From Chloroflexota bacterium (GTDB lineage: Bacteria > Chloroflexota > Dormibacteria > Dormibacterales > Dormibacteraceae), in contig VBEG01000037.1 in assembly GCA_005882115.1 (NCBI GenBank), positions 1 through 42,759 on the forward strand: a stretch of 42,759 nt of DNA. Reading direction: 5' to 3'. The notes below the pieces were generated by a model that was not told where the DNA came from, did not search any database, and was given only the letters and a program-made list of their open reading frames with translations. Each line of letters opens with the position of its first letter. Position 1 is the stretch's first letter. Positions 21,481 through 29,146 of the stretch are shown piece by piece. A program made the translations under genes and the position numbers.

Positions 21481-22830
21481 CTACCGTTCGTGAAGGGGGG
21501 TCGGACGCTTCTGGCCCCAGCGGCGCAACGCGACGGCCTCGCGCCGCACCACCCGGGCCCGGGCAGCCACACGGCGCTGATTGGGACCGCCGACGAGGTC
21601 ACGGCCTGCGACCGAAGACTTGGCATTGAATGATGTCGCGAAGGTGCCCTCCCGCACCTGCCCTGCGACCTCCTGGTGCGCCTTGCGAAAGGCGGTCCCT
21701 CCGCGGACCAGCTCCTCCGCGGCATCGGTGGCGAGCATGCTCGGGTCGCCTGCAGCCGCAGCCAGGCGCTGGCGGTCGAACTCCAGGTGCTCGACCAGGA
21801 TGGCCGCCGCCTCCAGGCAGTCGAACGTGTTGTCAACTGTTGCAAAGAGGGCTGTTTTGTCCTCCTGAAGGTCGCGGTCGTAGGCTAGCGGCAAGCCCTT
21901 GAGCGTGGTGGCGAGGGCGACGAGCGAACCGAGCGATCTCGCCGCACGGCCTCGGAGCAGCTCCGCGACGTCCGGGTTCTTCTTCTGCGGCATCAGGCTC
22001 GAGCCGGTCGAGATTTCGTCGGCCAGAGTCACAAACCCGAACTCCGCGCTCGCCCACAACACGATGTCTTCACCGAGCCGGCTGAGGTGGATACCAAGCA
22101 CGGCGCACGCGTACGCGAGGTCAAGCGCGAAGTCGCGATCTGATACGGCGTCGATGCTGTTCTCCGTGAGCCTGGTGAAGCCGAGCTCGCGGGCGACCAC
22201 GTCACGGCGCAGGGGCAGGGTTGTCGCGGCCAGCGCGCCCGAGCCCAACGGCATTTCTCCCGATGATGCGTATGCCTGCCGGAATCGGGCGGCGTCCCGA
22301 AGCAGCGGTTCGGCGTGTGCCAGGAGGTGGTGCCCCAGCGTGACAGGCTGCGCGCGCTGGAGATGCGTGTAGCCCGGCATGAGCCATCCCGCATGGGTCA
22401 GGGCTTTGCTCGCGAGGGCCTCGATAAGGGCGGCGAGGCCGACCGTCGCCTCGGCCGCGGCGTCACGGCAGAAGAGCCTCAGATCCAGTGCGATCTGGTC
22501 GTTGCGCGAACGACCCGCGTGCAAAGAAGCGCCGGCGGGCGTGATCTCGGTGAGCCTGCGCTCGATCGCCGTGTGGATGTCCTCATCTGTCGGTCGGAAC
22601 TTGAACGCGCCTTCGTCGAGCTCCCGCTTGACCCGGCGAAGTCCGCGCTCGATCGCCGTCGCCTGGGTCTTCGACAGCAGACGTGCCGCCGCAAGACCTC
22701 GAGCATGCGCGAGGCTGCCCGCGACGTCGTACGGATAGAGCTCGTAGTCCATCTCGAGTGAGGAGGCAAACCGTTCGAGCTCGGGCAGCATCGGCCCGCT
22801 GAAGCGCCCGCTCCAGAGCTTCTTACCCAT
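21481..22830 (-). CDS. argH: Argininosuccinate lyase
   Basis: A 449-residue tetrameric lyase of the fumarase/aspartase superfamily. It splits argininosuccinate into arginine and fumarate, the final step of arginine synthesis. The N-terminus is KKLWSGRFSG, then DEDIHTAIERRL, HAGRSRNDQIALDLRL, PGYTHLQRAQPVTLGHHLLAH, and the flexible catalytic loop GSSLMPQKKNPDVAELLRGRA with its Ser. It begins 11 bp after the argG stop. The last ~40 residues (VRREAVALRRWGQKRPTP) are basic and unusual but in frame. It closes the argCJBDRGH operon, and coaX follows closely. Confidence 0.97.
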   Translation of the reverse strand: MGKKLWSGRFSGPMLPELERFASSLEMDYELYPYDVAGSLAHARGLAAARLLSKTQATAIERGLRRVKRELDEGAFKFRPTDEDIHTAIERRLTEITPAGASLHAGRSRNDQIALDLRLFCRDAAAEATVGLAALIEALASKALTHAGWLMPGYTHLQRAQPVTLGHHLLAHAEPLLRDAARFRQAYASSGEMPLGSGALAATTLPLRRDVVARELGFTRLTENSIDAVSDRDFALDLAYACAVLGIHLSRLGEDIVLWASAEFGFVTLADEISTGSSLMPQKKNPDVAELLRGRAARSLGSLVALATTLKGLPLAYDRDLQEDKTALFATVDNTFDCLEAAAILVEHLEFDRQRLAAAAGDPSMLATDAAEELVRGGTAFRKAHQEVAGQVREGTFATSFNAKSSVAGRDLVGGPNQRRVAARARVVRREAVALRRWGQKRPTPLHER

Positions 22831-22841
22831 CGCTTTGCGGG

Positions 22842-24152
22842 CTATGGTGCGAGCCTCTTCACGTCACCCAATAAGTTGCCGAGGTCCCTTTCCTGGAGCC
22901 GGCCCTGGACCCGCGCCGAGGTGCGCACGCCCATACCCCAGAGCTTGATGAAGCCCGCCGCCGCCGACTGGTCGAACTGATCACCCTTGCCGTACGTGGC
23001 GAGCGAGAGCTGATAGAGCTGATGCGGACCCTTCCGGCCCACGACCTGCGACGAGCCTTTGAAGAGCTTCAACCTCACGTCGCCCGTCACGTGGCGTTGC
23101 GTCTCCGCGACGAATGCGTAGAGGGCGTCGCGCAATGGGCTGAACCACAGGCCGTCATAGACCATCTGCGCCCATTGCTGCGCGACAAGGTCTTTGAACC
23201 GCGCGACCTCCTTCGGCAGGGTGATGTCTTCGAGAGCCTGGTGAGCTTGCAAGAGGAGGATGGCAGCGGGTGCCTCGTAGATCTCGCGCGATTTGATGCC
23301 GATGAGCCGGTTCTCGAGATGATCGATCCGGCCGACGCCGCTTTCGCCTCCCACCTTGTTCAACGCAGTTACGAGCTCGAGAGCGGCGGTCGGATTGCCG
23401 TCAAGAGCGACAGGGATCCCTTCCTTGAACGCGATCTCAACGTAGGTGGGCTCGTCGGGACACTGGCGTGGATCGCGTGTCCACGCGTAGACATCTTTTG
23501 GCGGCTCTGCCCACGGATCTTCGAGAACTCCCGCTTCGATCGACCGGCCCCACAGGTTCTCGTCCGTCGAGTACGGCGACCGCGTCGTCGCCGGCACCTC
23601 GATGCCGTGCTTGCTGGCGTACTCGATCTCATCGTCGCGGTTCATGTTCCATTCGCGCACCGGCGCCACGACCTGCAGATCGGGTGCGAGCGCTGCTGTG
23701 GTGACGTCAAACCTCACCTGGTCATTGCCCTTGCCGGTGCAGCCGTGCGCCACTGCCTGCGCGCCCTCCCGGCGGGCGACCTCGACCATCATGGCGGCGA
23801 TCAGCGGGCGCCCGAGCGCGGTGGCGAGGGGATACTCCTTTTCGTAGACGGCGCCCGCCTGCAATGAGGGCCATACGAAAAGCTGGATGAATGGCAGCCT
23901 CCCGTCGGCCACATACGCGGCGGAGGCGCCGGTCTTCAAGGCGCGGGTCTGAATGGCGTCGAGATCTTTCTTCTCACCCAGGTCGACGGTGAACGCGATT
24001 ACGTCCCAGCCCTGGTCTTTCAACCAGCGGATCGCGACCGAGGTGTCCAGCCCGCCCGAATAGGCGAGCACGACTTTCTTGTTTTGGTGGGGGATATCCC
24101 CCCGTCGCGGCGGCCTGGCAGAGCCCGCGCCGGCGCCCCCCTCAGCCGGCAT
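22842..24152 (-). CDS. argG: Argininosuccinate synthase
   Basis: A 436-residue ATP-dependent synthase that joins citrulline and aspartate. The N-type ATP pyrophosphatase P-loop VVLAYSGGLDTSVAIRWL begins about residue 26. Further landmarks are VAHGCTGKGNDQVRFD, REWNMNRDDEIEYA, IDHLENRLIGIKSREIYEAPA and ALYAFVAETQRHVTGDVRLKLFKG. The only plausible initiator before the P-loop is ATG 24152, which overlaps argR by 11 bases and adds about 25 Gly/Ala/Pro/Arg-rich residues missing from most ArgG proteins. No ribosome site is seen, so translation may depend on coupling to argR. A perfect 14-bp palindrome lies in this extension at 24089-24102. Confidence 0.95.
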   Translation of the reverse strand: MPAEGGAGAGSARPPRRGDIPHQNKKVVLAYSGGLDTSVAIRWLKDQGWDVIAFTVDLGEKKDLDAIQTRALKTGASAAYVADGRLPFIQLFVWPSLQAGAVYEKEYPLATALGRPLIAAMMVEVARREGAQAVAHGCTGKGNDQVRFDVTTAALAPDLQVVAPVREWNMNRDDEIEYASKHGIEVPATTRSPYSTDENLWGRSIEAGVLEDPWAEPPKDVYAWTRDPRQCPDEPTYVEIAFKEGIPVALDGNPTAALELVTALNKVGGESGVGRIDHLENRLIGIKSREIYEAPAAILLLQAHQALEDITLPKEVARFKDLVAQQWAQMVYDGLWFSPLRDALYAFVAETQRHVTGDVRLKLFKGSSQVVGRKGPHQLYQLSLATYGKGDQFDQSAAAGFIKLWGMGVRTSARVQGRLQERDLGNLLGDVKRLAP

Positions 24153-24549
24153 TCGCCAGCAGTTCTTTGAGCGCGCGGCCGGCGCTGCGCTTGCGCAGGA
24201 CCGCGATGATCGTGTCATCACCGGCCACCGTGCCGGCGATGCCGGGCAGTGCCGCCTCATCGATCCGGCGCGCGACGAGGTTGGCCGTCCCCGGCGGCGT
24301 CCTGATCACGGCCATCGGGTCGATGAACTCGACTGAGAGGACGAGCTCGCGCACCAGCCCGGACGAGCTGCGGTAGCCGCTGCCCGACCGGACGAGTCCG
24401 AGCTCCTGGATGTCGCGCGAGATCGTGGCCTGGGTCGCGCGCATGCCCCGGCGCGCGAGCGCCGCCGCGATCGCGTGCTGCGTGTGGGCTGAGCCGTGAG
24501 TGACCAGCTCGAGGATCGCGCTGTGCCGCTCGGCCTTGGTCGCTGTCAT
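24142..24549 (-). CDS. argR: Arginine repressor ArgR
   Basis: A 135-residue arginine-responsive transcription factor. The N-terminal winged helix (about 5-60) has the recognition region ATQATISRDIQELGL (38-52). The C-terminal oligomerisation and arginine-binding domain (about 65-135) keeps GTVAGDDTIIAVLR (106-119), whose DD pair contacts arginine. ATG 24549 overlaps the argD stop by four bases, so it is made as part of the operon. It very likely binds the two ARG-box-like sites in front of argC and represses its own operon. The longer open frame upstream to 24855 is an argD shadow. Confidence 0.96.
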   Translation of the reverse strand: MTATKAERHSAILELVTHGSAHTQHAIAAALARRGMRATQATISRDIQELGLVRSGSGYRSSSGLVRELVLSVEFIDPMAVIRTPPGTANLVARRIDEAALPGIAGTVAGDDTIIAVLRKRSAGRALKELLANAG

Positions 24550-25700
24550 CGCGCGGCCTTGCGCATGACCGAATGCGCCCTGTCGATCTGCTCGGCGGTG
24601 ATGATCAGCGGCGGCACCAGGCGCACGGAGTGGTCGTCGACGGCGTTGACGATCAGGCCGCCGTCGAGGCACGCCTGCTGAAACGGCTTCGCCTTCGCGT
24701 CCTCGAACTCGAACGCTTGCATGAGGCCTACCCCCCGAACGTCTTTCGCTCCGAGGTCGCCGAGGGAGGACTCGAGGAGCTCGCCCATCTCCGCCGCATG
24801 GCCGACCAGCCCGTCGCGCTCGATGACATGGAGCACCGCGGACGCGACGGAACATGCGAGCGGATTGCCGCCGAATGTCGAGCCGTGATCACCGGGCTCG
24901 AAGACGTCGGCCCGTTGGTTGGCCAGGCATGCACCGATGGGCAGCCCGCCTCCGAGCCCTTTGGCCAGAGTCATCACGTCCGGCGTGATTCCGGCGTGCT
25001 GATGAGCAAACCAGCGTCCGGTCCGGCCCAGGCCGGTCTGGACCTCATCGAGGATGAGGAGGAGGTTTTGTTTGTCGCACCAGTCTCGCACCTGTCGCAG
25101 GTAGCCCGGTGCGGCGGGGATCACGCCGATCTCGCCCATCACGGGCTCGAGCATCACGGCAACGGTCTTGTCAGTGGTCGCGGCCTGAATGGCCTCGGCG
25201 TCGTTGTACGCGACGTGGACGAAGCCGTCGGGAAGCGGTCGAAACGGGTCGGAGTACTTGTGCTGCCCGCCGGCCGCGATCGTGGCGAGGGTGCGGCCGT
25301 GAAACGAACCGGCGGTGGTGATCATCTCGAAGGCGCCGTCGCGATTCTTGGTCCCCCACTTGCGCGCAAGCTTGATCGCCGCCTCGTTGGCTTCGGCTCC
25401 GGAGTTACAGAAGAAGACGCGCGACGGGAACGACAGCTCAACGAGGCGACGGGCGAGGTCGACCTGTGGCTGCGTGAAGTACAGGTTCGATGTGTGGATC
25501 AGCTCGGCCGACTGTCTCGACACCGCGGCGACGACGTCCGGGTGCGCGTGGCCGAGAAGGTTGACCGCGATGCCGGCCACAAGGTCGAGGTACTCGCGAC
25601 CCGAGTCGTCATAGAGCAGGCAACCGCGACCTCGGACGAACGTCACCGGCAGACGGCGGCCGGTCTGCATCAAGTAGCGCTCGGCGAGCTCTACTGTCAC
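24546..25700 (-). CDS. argD: Acetylornithine aminotransferase
   Basis: A 384-residue class III PLP-dependent aminotransferase converting N-acetylglutamate semialdehyde to N-acetylornithine. The PLP-phosphate site is FFCNSGAEANEAAIKLARKWG, followed by SFHGRTLATIAAGGQ, the LLLILDEVQTGLGRTG Asp that contacts the pyridine nitrogen, the Lys of TLAKGLGGGLPIGA that binds PLP, and STFGGNPLAC. The start GTG 25700 overlaps the argB stop by four bases (GTGA). Upstream residues of the open frame have no family match. argR, not argF, follows directly, so ornithine carbamoyltransferase must be encoded elsewhere. Confidence 0.97.
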   Translation of the reverse strand: MTVELAERYLMQTGRRLPVTFVRGRGCLLYDDSGREYLDLVAGIAVNLLGHAHPDVVAAVSRQSAELIHTSNLYFTQPQVDLARRLVELSFPSRVFFCNSGAEANEAAIKLARKWGTKNRDGAFEMITTAGSFHGRTLATIAAGGQHKYSDPFRPLPDGFVHVAYNDAEAIQAATTDKTVAVMLEPVMGEIGVIPAAPGYLRQVRDWCDKQNLLLILDEVQTGLGRTGRWFAHQHAGITPDVMTLAKGLGGGLPIGACLANQRADVFEPGDHGSTFGGNPLACSVASAVLHVIERDGLVGHAAEMGELLESSLGDLGAKDVRGVGLMQAFEFEDAKAKPFQQACLDGGLIVNAVDDHSVRLVPPLIITAEQIDRAHSVMRKAAR

Positions 25701-26533
25701 GGCGTGACCATCGTCCCGATGCCTGCTTCGGTGAACAGCTCGAGCAGGAGCGCGTGCTTGGTCCTGCCGTCGACGATGTGCGCGAGCGGCACGCCGTCCA
25801 GGGCGCGCAGGCACGCCTCGAGCTTGGGGATCATCCCGCCGGTGACCTCGCCCTTCTCGATGCGTTGGCGCGCGTCGTCCTTCGACAGCACGGCAACCAC
25901 CTCCCCGTCGACGCCCTGGACGCCCGGCACGTCGGTCAGCAGGATGACCTTCGCCGCACCCAGCGCGACCGCGATCTCGGCCGCGACCGTGTCGGCGTTG
26001 ATGTTGTACGCATGGCCGTCGTAGCCCAGGCCGATCGACGCGATCACCGGGATGTAGCCGCGGCTCAGCAGCGCCGTGATCGGCTCCTTATTCACCTGCG
26101 TGACGCGCCCGACGTAGCCCATCGACTCGTCGAGCGGCTCGGCGATGATCGTCGGGCCATCCTCCCCGCTCATGCCGACGGCCTGGCCGCCAAGACGGTG
26201 AATCGCCGCCACGAGGTCCGGGCTGACCTTGCCGGTCAACACCATCTTCACGACCTCCATAGTTTTGTCGTCGGTGATCCGCAATCCGTTCTTGAACTCG
26301 GCCTTGAGACCCAGGCGCTCGCTCATCGCCGTGATCTCGGGTCCGCCCCCATGCACCAACACTGGTTGCATGCCGACGTAGCGCAGGAGCACAACGTCGA
26401 GCAGCGTCTCGTCGCGCGCGTGCTCGATCGCGTTTCCGCCGACCTTGATGACCACGATCTGGCCGTGGAAGCGCTTGATGTAGGGCAGCGCCTCGACGAG
26501 AACCTTGGCCCGTTCCGCGACGGTGAGGGTCAT
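25697..26533 (-). CDS. argB: Acetylglutamate kinase
   Basis: A 278-residue amino-acid kinase phosphorylating N-acetylglutamate with ATP. The N-terminal lobe has QIVVIKVGGNAI with the catalytic Lys, PVLVHGGGPEITAMSERLG for substrate and phosphate binding, and FKNGLRITDDKTMEVVKMVLTGKV. The ATP lobe shows YNINADTVAAEIAVALGA, KVILLTDVPGV and GGMIPKLEACLRAL. ATG 26533 overlaps the argJ stop by four bases. In related linear pathways this is the arginine feedback point. The N-terminal MTLTVAERAKVLVEALPYIKRF helix resembles the extra helix of arginine-sensitive enzymes, so feedback inhibition is plausible. Confidence 0.97.
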   Translation of the reverse strand: MTLTVAERAKVLVEALPYIKRFHGQIVVIKVGGNAIEHARDETLLDVVLLRYVGMQPVLVHGGGPEITAMSERLGLKAEFKNGLRITDDKTMEVVKMVLTGKVSPDLVAAIHRLGGQAVGMSGEDGPTIIAEPLDESMGYVGRVTQVNKEPITALLSRGYIPVIASIGLGYDGHAYNINADTVAAEIAVALGAAKVILLTDVPGVQGVDGEVVAVLSKDDARQRIEKGEVTGGMIPKLEACLRALDGVPLAHIVDGRTKHALLLELFTEAGIGTMVTP

Positions 26534-27747
26534 GTCGTGTAGTCCGCGTTGATTCGCACGTATTCCTCCGATAGGTCGCAGCCCCAGGCCTCGGCGCTTC
26601 CCTCCGCCAGGCCCAGTTTCGCCACGATCTCGATCTCCGGCTGCTCGAACGCGCGGCGTACCGCCGCCAGGTCGACGTCGACGCCCGAGCCGCGCTCGAA
26701 GACAACAAGGCCTCCGACCGTCAGGTGGAGGCGGTCGAGCGCAAGCTCGGCGCCACTGTAGCCGAGGGCGCACACGATGCGGCCCCAGTTCGGATCGCCG
26801 CCGTGGACGGCGGTCTTGACCAGGCTCGAAGACGCCACCGCGCGCGCCGCGGTCCGCGCCTCGTCGTTGGTCGCGGCGTCCAGGACCTTGACGGTGATCA
26901 GCTTGGTCGCGCCCTCGCCATCTCGCGCGATGGCGCGCGACAGCTCCTGCGCCACGTGAGTCAGCGCTGCCTGCAGCTGCTCCTCTTCCACACTCCCCGC
27001 GCGGACTGGCTCGTTGCCGGCCGCGCCGTTGGCAAGGATCAGGAAGCTGTCGTTGGTCGAGCTGTCACCGTCGACCGTCACCTGGTTGAAGCTGCGGTCG
27101 GCGACGGTTTTCACCATCCTTGCCATCAGCCCGGCCTCCACCGCGGCGTCAGTCGTGATGTAGGCGAGCATCGTCGCCATGTTGGGGTGGATCATCCCGG
27201 ACCCCTTGCACATCCCACCCACGCGAACTGTGACGCCGCCGACGTCGACCTCGACGTGGGCGGTCTTGGGGTGGGTGTCGGTCGTCATGATCGCGCGCGC
27301 CGCGGACTCGCCCCCGTCGGGGCTGAGCGTTTCGCACGCTTGCGCGATTCCAGGCTTGATCGCGTCCATCGGCAGGAAGCGGCCGATCACGCCGGTGGAG
27401 CTGACGAGCACCTGGTCCGGGTCGAGGTCGAGCCTGTCCGCCGACAGCTTCGCCATCAGCAGCGCGTCGCGGAATCCCTGCGCTCCCGTGCAAGCATTCG
27501 CGTTGCCGGAGTTGATCGTCAGCGCCTGGACGCGGTTGCGCTGCAGGTGCAACTGGTCGATCACCACAGAGGCCGACTTCACCTTGTTCGTGGTGAAGAC
27601 GCCGCCGGTATCGCACGGATGCGCGGAGTGGACGACGCACAGGTCGTCGCGCTGGTTGGTCGGGATGGCGGACGCGCCGGTGGTGAACGCTTTGATGCCG
27701 CACGCCGCCGTGCCCGCCCGAAATCCGCGGGCGAATGTCACGGCCAT
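26530..27747 (-). CDS. argJ: Bifunctional ArgJ acetyltransferase
   Basis: A 405-residue Ntn-type enzyme that moves acetyl groups from N-acetylornithine to glutamate, and in the bifunctional form also makes N-acetylglutamate from acetyl-CoA. The precursor cleaves itself between Ala191 and Thr192 in KGSGMIHPNMATMLAY, giving two chains with Thr192 as nucleophile. Other marks are INSGNANACTG (78-88), SSTGVIGRFLPM and VKTAVHGGDPNWGRI. The true start is ATG 27747, overlapping argC by 10 bases; the open frame to 28425 is an argC shadow. No argA is seen, as expected for a recycled-acetyl pathway. Confidence 0.96.
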   Translation of the reverse strand: MAVTFARGFRAGTAACGIKAFTTGASAIPTNQRDDLCVVHSAHPCDTGGVFTTNKVKSASVVIDQLHLQRNRVQALTINSGNANACTGAQGFRDALLMAKLSADRLDLDPDQVLVSSTGVIGRFLPMDAIKPGIAQACETLSPDGGESAARAIMTTDTHPKTAHVEVDVGGVTVRVGGMCKGSGMIHPNMATMLAYITTDAAVEAGLMARMVKTVADRSFNQVTVDGDSSTNDSFLILANGAAGNEPVRAGSVEEEQLQAALTHVAQELSRAIARDGEGATKLITVKVLDAATNDEARTAARAVASSSLVKTAVHGGDPNWGRIVCALGYSGAELALDRLHLTVGGLVVFERGSGVDVDLAAVRRAFEQPEIEIVAKLGLAEGSAEAWGCDLSEEYVRINADYTT

Positions 27748-28754
27748 TGCGTCGCACCTTCGAGCGCGGTCGTGCGCGGGAAGCCAAACGCGATGTTGAA
27801 GCACTCGACTCCCTGGCCCGACGCGCCCTTCACCAGGTTGTCGAGCGCGGAGGTGACGACTGCTTTTCCGCCCTGGGCCGAAACGTTGACCAGGCAGAGG
27901 TTCGTGTGCGTCGCGAGCTTGGTGGTCGGCGTCCGCTCGACGACCTTGGTGAACGGTTGGCCGGCGTAGAACTCGCGATACACGTCGCGCAGCTGCTCCA
28001 CCGAGCCTTTCAGGTCGAAGTAGCAGGTCGCAAGGATGCCGCGGACCATCGGCACGAGATGAGGGACGAACGTCACCTGCACCTTGCCGTTCCGGCCCAG
28101 GGCACCAAGCTCTTGCAGGATCTCCGGCAGATGGCGGTGGCCGTCGATGGCGTACGCGCCGACGGATTCGTCCACCTCGCTGAAGTGAGTGCCCAGACCG
28201 ACGGATCGGCCCGCCCCGCTCACGCCCGACTTGGCGTCGACGACGATGTCGGAGCCCACCAGGCCGGCGGAAACCGCCGGCGCCAGGCCGAGGATCGAAG
28301 CCGTTGCGTAGCAGCCGGGCACCGCCACCAGGCGCGCTTCCTTGAGCTCTTGCCCGTGTAGCTCCGGCAATCCGAGGACGGCTTGCTGAAGGAGGGCGGG
28401 CTCTGGGTGGGGCTGCCGGTACCACGTCGGGTATTCAGAGGCGTCGTGCAGCCTGAAATCGGCGCTCATGTCGATCACCCGGATCCCTGCGTCGAGCCAA
28501 GACCTCACCTTCGCCGCGCCCAGGTTGTGCGGCAAGCAACTGAAGATGACATCGAGGCCATCGGCTGCTGTCTCCGGGACGAACTCACCCTCGACTTCGA
28601 GGAGCGGGAAGACGACCGTGAATGGCTTACCGGCGTACGAGCGCGAAGTCAGCTGGATCAGCTCGACCGCCGGATGGCGCGCGAGGAGGTGCACCGCGGT
28701 CATCCCTGCGTACCCGCTGGCGCCGGCGACGGCGGCCCGGAGCTTTTTGGTCAC
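27738..28754 (-). CDS. argC: N-acetyl-glutamyl-phosphate reductase
   Basis: A 338-residue NADPH-dependent reductase making N-acetylglutamate semialdehyde. The Rossmann motif AGASGYAG is at 10-17, the catalytic Cys148 lies in VAVPGCYATAS, and the substrate loop has DAKSGVSGAG. HRHLPEI and VTFVPHLVPMVRGI complete the domain. GTG 28754 is the start, only 2 nt from the nearer ARG-box-like site and about 9 nt from a TATACT hexamer. The mRNA may therefore be leaderless or nearly so. It is the promoter-proximal gene of argCJBDRGH. Confidence 0.97.
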   Translation of the reverse strand: MTKKLRAAVAGASGYAGMTAVHLLARHPAVELIQLTSRSYAGKPFTVVFPLLEVEGEFVPETAADGLDVIFSCLPHNLGAAKVRSWLDAGIRVIDMSADFRLHDASEYPTWYRQPHPEPALLQQAVLGLPELHGQELKEARLVAVPGCYATASILGLAPAVSAGLVGSDIVVDAKSGVSGAGRSVGLGTHFSEVDESVGAYAIDGHRHLPEILQELGALGRNGKVQVTFVPHLVPMVRGILATCYFDLKGSVEQLRDVYREFYAGQPFTKVVERTPTTKLATHTNLCLVNVSAQGGKAVVTSALDNLVKGASGQGVECFNIAFGFPRTTALEGATQWP

Positions 28755-28756
28755 GG

Positions 28757-28793
28757 GCGCATGAGTATACAGTCAAACTGCATAAAGATGCGT
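28757..28793 (-). promoter_or_regulatory. Tandem ARG boxes and argC promoter
   Basis: Two ARG-box-like sites fill the 62-bp gap between hisI and argC. Site A (28778-28793) reads CTGCATAAAGATGCGT on the plus strand. Site B (28757-28772) reads CTGTATACTCATGCGC on the minus strand. Both resemble TTGCATA-NNN-ATGCAA, the operator type I recall for mycobacterial ArgR. Their centres are 21 bp apart, two helical turns, as in paired E. coli ARG boxes. TATACT in site B (complement of 28764-28769) looks like the argC -10 element, so ArgR bound here would block RNA polymerase. No convincing -35 is seen. Confidence 0.75.
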
Positions 28794-28816
28794 TGGTCCA
28801 GGTGGTCCCCACGAAA

Positions 28817-29146
28817 TCACGGCCGAGCCTCAGATTTCGAGGGGTTATCTGGCGTGTTGAAGAAGCACGACTCAGCGCCTGTGTGGCAGGCCGGTCCCGC
28901 GGGGCGCACCCGCAGGAGAACGGCGTCGAGGTCGCAGTCGAGTCGCACCTCGACGACCTCCATGGTGTTGCCCGAGGTCGCGCCCTTCTCCCACAGGCCG
29001 CGCTCGCGTGAAAGGAACCAGGCGCGGCCCGTCTCGCGAGTCTTGTCCCACGCCTCCTGGTCCATGTAGGCGAGCATCAGCACGCGGCCGGTGTCGGCGT
29101 CCTGCGCGACGGCGGGGACGAGCCCCTTCGAAAAGTCGGGCGTCAT
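28817..29146 (-). CDS. hisI: Phosphoribosyl-AMP cyclohydrolase
   Basis: A 109-residue monofunctional HisI that opens the purine ring of phosphoribosyl-AMP in step 3 of histidine synthesis. Motifs are [42 protein letters not shown], and metal ligands in [13 protein letters not shown] and [11 protein letters not shown] (zinc Cys residues). It lacks the HisE pyrophosphohydrolase domain found in enterobacterial HisIE, and no hisE follows. Its start overlaps the hisF stop by four bases. It is the last his gene; the arg promoter region begins about 25 bp after its stop. Confidence 0.97.

Follow-up and report, generated by a model that had tools for sequence, protein, structure and literature searches.

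A conserved pair of ARG boxes at the argC promoter of a Dormibacteraceae genome, predicted to be an ArgR operator of the argCJBDRGH operon

The ArgR protein of Escherichia coli governs a regulon of many operons. Its operators consist of two 18-bp palindromes that lie 3 bp apart (2 bp at argR) and overlap the promoter (PMC3293853, PMC6640053). At Streptomyces argC, in the argCJBDR operon of S. clavuligerus and at SCO1580 of S. coelicolor, two tandem boxes are placed about 20 bp apart, argR belongs to the operon, and the half-sites are of the TGCAT-N4-ATGCA type. One study reports 44 functional ARG boxes (PMC5839063), and some of the Streptomyces boxes that it lists reach or overlap a start codon (argG at -2, SCO1086 at 5), so that closeness to a start codon is not new in itself. 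For the proximal argC box of S. coelicolor the same source puts the start codon at a distance of 18 and adds a second value of -3, which we take to refer to the neighbouring gene. The site described here, upstream of argC in a member of the Dormibacteraceae, is by its letters and geometry a putative ArgR operator of the standard kind, and the closest known relative is that of Streptomyces argC.

The stretch of DNA that we analysed (the window, 42,759 nucleotides) is contig C27 of a 3.36-Mb genome in 147 contigs. On its minus strand a run of his genes ending with hisI (28817–29146; PRK00051, 134.7 bits, cut-off 126) is followed by a 62-bp gap and then by argC-argJ-argB-argD-argR-argG-argH, all in the same orientation. 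The argC gene (27738–28754, with a GTG start at 28754–28752) encodes N-acetyl-gamma-glutamyl-phosphate reductase (TIGR01850, 363.6 bits, cut-off 233.6), argD (24546–25700) an acetylornithine transaminase (PRK03244 and TIGR00707, both above cut-off) and argR (24142–24549) an arginine repressor of 135 aa, with 102.6 bits to TIGR01529 and M. tuberculosis ArgR as its best PDB match. From sequence and position we take 26530–27747 to be argJ and 25697–26533 to be argB, while 22842–24083 (start position provisional) and 21481–22830 are presumably argG and argH; the starts of argJ, argB and argD were picked by eye. From argC through argR each gene overlaps the next by 4–10 bp (10 bp between argC and argJ, 4 bp between argJ and argB), which speaks for one operon, and argR is the fifth gene of the cluster, within the operon as had been proposed. 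No terminator-like site was found in 28650–28950, which includes the hisI–argC gap. The argF gene of this genome (G000 C1:46854–47738, L116) is located away from the arg operon. There is no ARG box with at most one mismatch at its locus, and argF therefore seems to be outside the circuit.

The pair of boxes sits in the hisI–argC gap (28755–28816), where the original prediction had placed it, and its coordinates, spacing and letters all check. The sequence CTGCATAAAGATGCGT is found at 28778–28793 (plus strand) and CTGTATACTCATGCGC at 28757–28772 (minus strand), with centres at 28785.5 and 28764.5, 21 bp apart. Taken on the minus strand with argC, the promoter-distal box (28778–28793) has the core CGCATCTTTATGCA at 28779–28792, with one mismatch of ten to TGCAT-N4-ATGCA, and the promoter-proximal box (28757–28772) has the core TGTATACTCATGCG at 28758–28771, with two. 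The fit to the longer pattern that had been put forward, TTGCATA-NNN-ATGCAA, holds as an approximation, with three mismatches in the distal box and four in the proximal one; each box singly is a weak match to it. A TATACT hexamer (28764–28769, minus strand), the putative -10 of the argC promoter, lies inside the proximal box and is separated from the argC GTG by nine bases (28763–28755), again in agreement with what had been claimed, and the start codon follows the 14-bp proximal core after 3 nt. A simple scan of the argC promoter revealed no -35 consensus. The site thus presents two palindromic boxes at the 20–21 bp distance between centres that marks ArgR operators, half-sites of the Streptomyces type (TGCAT / ATGCA) and an overlap with the predicted promoter of an arginine gene.

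The likeness to Streptomyces extends to detail. The TGCAT-N4-ATGCA core fits the Streptomyces consensus AWTGCATRWWYATGCAWT, whereas the E. coli half-site is TGAAT where the window has TGCAT (consensus in PMC4865122), and the spacing of 20 or 21 bp corresponds both to Streptomyces (2-bp gap) and to E. coli, whose 18-bp boxes have 3 bp between them (PMC3293853). When read on the argC strand, the proximal box of S. coelicolor (PMC5839063) holds GTATAGTCATGC, which is nearly the GTATACTCATGC of the window, and its TATAGT may well be a -10, a reading that is ours and not that of the paper. The arrangements differ in that the start codon comes 3 nt after the 14-bp core in the window, compared to the listed 18 in S. 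coelicolor, and in the size of the regulon, with 44 functional boxes reported in PMC5839063 and one strong paired site found in the genome of the window.

By motif alone the pair is no better than chance in the window: with up to three mismatches the 16-bp pattern first proposed has three matches there against 2.2 expected, none of them at the proximal box with its four mismatches. In the 3.36-Mb genome a relaxed two-box pattern with 21-bp spacing and up to three mismatches has one place, at argC, while the backward control also has one, and the same pattern at 20-bp spacing has one other place, on contig C53 with three mismatches (none in the control). A sequence-only model of 42 positions, built from aligned argC upstream regions of which the window is one row, returns a single site at E values up to 10 (E 4.0e-10), and besides the argC site no strong paired site was found in this genome. 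Single boxes with at most one mismatch occur at 46 places against 25 in the backward control, and the 15 of these that were examined as loci comprise the argC site, 11 places inside predicted genes and three between genes, where the printed neighbours, judged by eye, are unlike arginine genes. The pair nevertheless stands far above chance, because it is conserved in relatives and because a paired pattern searched in 110 genomes of the class is found at 18 places with none in the control.

A scan of relatives for the paired motif had been set beforehand as one of the tests that could refute the prediction, and the motif proved to be strongly conserved. The closest argC relatives found (L001–L030; best segments 68–79% identical) come from metagenome-assembled genomes, in nearly every case under the label Chloroflexi or Dormibacterota and once as Bacillota. 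We aligned 28 upstream regions, the window and 27 of these loci; L026 and L030 break off ahead of the argC start, L024 was handled apart, the distant L033 was left out, and in seven rows (L010, L014, L017, L022, L025, L028 and L029) the start codon was moved by eye from the match start. Both boxes are present in 27 of the 28 regions, L027 having one and a half. The distal core has 0–2 mismatches of ten in 27 rows (five in L027) and the proximal core 1–3 in all 28, and mean column identity is 94% over the proximal core (-17 to -4; L017 shifted by 3) against 38–45% in the flanks. In the consensus, nGCATGTTTATGCAGT-N-CTGTATACTCATGCGCTC, 12 columns are invariant, and the boxes are 20 bp apart in 15 rows and 21 bp apart in 13, the latter including L027 with its poor distal box. 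The hexamer at the -10 place is TATACT in 23 rows and another sequence in five. In 27 rows the -10 ends 9 nt, and the proximal core 3 nt, before the start codon, L017 being the exception with 3 nt more (12 nt from its -10), and these distances are kept across start codons that vary (14 ATG, 13 GTG and one TTG); L027 has an additional ATG 6 nt after its -10. A hisI motif lies just upstream (within 300 bp) in 22 rows, and since the six rows that lack it keep the operator, the element goes with argC rather than with its neighbour. In L024 (5895–6000; same contig as L169) the pair is found 72–106 bp ahead of the start of the argC match. A short ORF lies between them and no start codon is adjacent, an arrangement that would be a variant with a leader or else an error in the sequence.

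Applied more widely, the 42-position model, which was trained mostly on one family, matched 20 members of a first set of 31 genomes (E up to 0.1) and, under stricter filters, 46 of 110 genomes of the class (E up to 0.2); many of the 110 contribute the same contigs as the argC relatives, and the genome sets are therefore not independent. The matches are distributed unevenly over the families, with 35 of 42 in that of the window (f1), 3 of 32 in f2, 8 of 18 in f3 and 0 of 18 in f4, and 64 of the 110 genomes have no model match, though an ArgR is found in 97. Eleven of the 46 matches are weak (E above 0.02 and up to 0.2), those of f3 among them, and some of the weak ones may be chance; no argC motif was found near the match in G057. 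In 39 of the 46 genomes argR lies 2.6–4.7 kb downstream of the site on the same strand and contig, a linkage in line with the position of argR in the window, while argR is on another contig in six and was not found in one. The paired pattern (6-nt gap) occurs at its 18 places in 18 of the 110 genomes, and 17 of these are at argC or between lysX and argG; near the place in G031 no argC motif was found.

The lysX/argG arrangement is a variant of family f3. In G022 (L155, C234:32000–38500) the pair lies between a divergent lysX (TIGR02144, 335.5 bits, cut-off 275.6) and an argG-argH-argR-argG cluster, with the ATG of lysX 6 nt after a TATGAT and a leader containing GAGGAGG in front of argG. Two proteins encoded in this cluster score above the argG cut-off. 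In G028 the pair is between lysX-like and argG-like genes, with 12 nt from the -10 to the start of lysX and with argR 2.7 kb away on the argG side. The occurrence of the pair at lysX and argG indicates that the operator stays with arginine-related genes through rearrangements of the cluster.

We consider it highly probable that the pair is an ArgR operator on the argCJBDRGH promoter that combines occlusion of the promoter, autoregulation and a near-leaderless mRNA. ArgR binding, its dependence on arginine, repression and the exact 5' end are what we infer from the site. With arginine plentiful, a hexamer of ArgR and arginine would occupy the two boxes next to each other on one face of the DNA. 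Since the -10 and the likely transcription start lie in the proximal box, RNA polymerase could then not open the promoter. Because argR is within the operon, ArgR would limit its own supply, a negative autoregulation. As arginine falls, ArgR would leave, and a nearly leaderless mRNA would begin 0–4 nt before the argC start codon (28754–28758, minus strand, the zone predicted from its distance downstream of the -10). Occlusion of the -10 and start by the ArgR–arginine hexamer is the simplest reading and would follow what is known of the family (PMC3293853, PMC6640053).

How much of argC expression passes through this promoter is a separate question. The gene could be expressed mainly by read-through from the his genes, with the ArgR site trimming an internal promoter and arginine control being weak. 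The hisI gene ends 62 bp before argC and the search for a terminator-like site found none, which is compatible with this, as is the hisI motif in 22 of the 28 rows, and in E. coli transcription from carP1 continues with ArgR bound at carP2 (PMC6640053). That the six rows without a hisI motif keep the operator suggests selection on the internal promoter itself, and we regard read-through as the main source of argC expression as unlikely, while recognizing that it may blunt the tightness of arginine control.

The near-leaderless start can be set against the genome at large. Leaderless genes with a -10-like TANNNT whose first T is about 12 bp before the start codon have been described in Actinobacteria, Deinococcus-Thermus, some Chloroflexi and others (PMC3160421). 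The argC gene shares with these the -10-like box just upstream of its start codon, with the first T at 15 bp, about 3 more than in the described genes, and this difference leads to the predicted leader of 0–4 nt; by the same spacing a leader of about 3 nt appears as likely as none. We counted TANNNT before all candidate starts in the first third of 354 predicted genes (442,759 bp of this genome, L121–L140 and the window), taking the expectation from positions 12–29. At 6–10 nt there are 38 before ATG and 32 before GTG (argC included), each against 7.5 expected, while the CTG control has 10 against 10.3 and TTG starts show no excess (5 against 4.4). The scrambled control TNNNAT, which overlaps TANNNT at TANNAT, is somewhat raised before ATG (23 against 18.1) and GTG (37 against 21.9) and not before CTG (22 against 28.3). 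Some ATG or GTG candidate has a TANNNT 6–10 nt before it in 70 of the 354 genes, compared to 21 at 16–20 nt. From these counts, near-leaderless starts look to be common in the genome, with argC falling within the band, and the prediction of a near-leaderless argC mRNA gains support from this signal and from the 9-nt spacing in 27 of 28 rows.

It could be, to the contrary, that the true start is further upstream and that TATACT owes its conservation to the ARG box alone. The 9 nt between the -10 and the start codon are more than the 6 nt that a start right at +1 would give, no -35 was found, the lysX of G028 (L113) starts 12 nt after its -10, and argC in L024 starts far from the pair. On the other side, the 18 nt in front of the argC GTG show no Shine-Dalgarno sequence, and the constancy of the spacing while start codons vary, the 6–7 nt at single loci of other families (L112 lysX, L115 and L168 argC) and the breadth of the genome-wide TANNNT excess (6–10 nt) all speak for the near-leaderless form; we therefore judge a start further upstream rather improbable. 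We also considered a mini-ORF, beginning at an ATG inside the proximal box, as a regulator of argC, and dropped it. It would be upstream of where the mRNA probably begins, and its stop, which relies on the second codon of argC, is by eye not kept in all rows.

That the conserved element is nothing more than a strong promoter, its palindrome incidental and the operon controlled by another signal or by none, is very improbable: a -10 context alone would be conserved, as TATACT is in 23 of 28 rows, and the motif match within the window is not above chance, yet the distal box 20–21 bp away is conserved too, though the window has no -35 consensus, the same pair serves divergent lysX and argG near argR in the two f3 genomes, and the paired pattern has its 18 places against none in the control.

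With the pair read as an ArgR operator, a classic feedback circuit is extended to an uncultivated soil lineage, the Dormibacterota, with an operator near the Streptomyces type, and a literature search found no earlier paper on the arginine circuit of this lineage. The locus further suggests that ArgR occurs in nature in a linkerless form. The arginine regulon of this family may even have shrunk to a single paired operator that is fixed to the argC start and read by a linkerless ArgR, which we offer as a tentative possibility and on balance doubt; if true, the DNA-binding heads of the hexamer would be rigid and essentially only the tandem 20–21-bp geometry would be usable, making this a natural minimal arginine switch.

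The ArgR of the window has the two domains of the ArgR/AhrC family, a winged-helix N-domain and an arginine-binding core domain, and it keeps the motifs TQATISRD and GDDT; TQAT-SRD and GDDT are invariant over 35 rows. Its score to TIGR01529 (102.6 bits, E 1.9e-29) is below the curated NCBIfam cut-off of 130.45, which is passed in only one of the 110 class genomes, and this cut-off looks too strict for the class. An AlphaFold2 model (pLDDT 87.1) has a pTM of 0.59, which makes the relative orientation of the domains uncertain, and in a Foldseek search with it ArgR/AhrC entries take ranks 1–32, with TM-scores of about 0.5 to whole ArgR chains. The best match in sequence and fold is M. tuberculosis ArgR (PDB 3ERE, 3FHZ, 3LAJ and 3LAP), with which it shares TQAT-SRD and GDDT. 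The inter-domain linker seen in solved structures, which is not a formal mark of the family, is missing; in the model the wing strand (58–61) runs straight into a helix (62–69). Published work describes the definition and properties of the ArgR linker as unclear and maps mutants to it (PMC7248756). Counted in the alignment, the distance from the TQAT motif to GDDT is 71 residues in the window, 93 in M. tuberculosis (22 more) and 87 in B. halodurans, and the linkerless ArgR might be the part of this system that is new. Among 39 ArgR proteins from the loci (a count that includes the contig repeats L024/L169 and L027/L166 and omits the f4 proteins L161, L163, L164 and L174, in which the search motif is missing) the distance is 69–74 residues in 31 and 88–90 in the other eight, which belong to f2 and f3.
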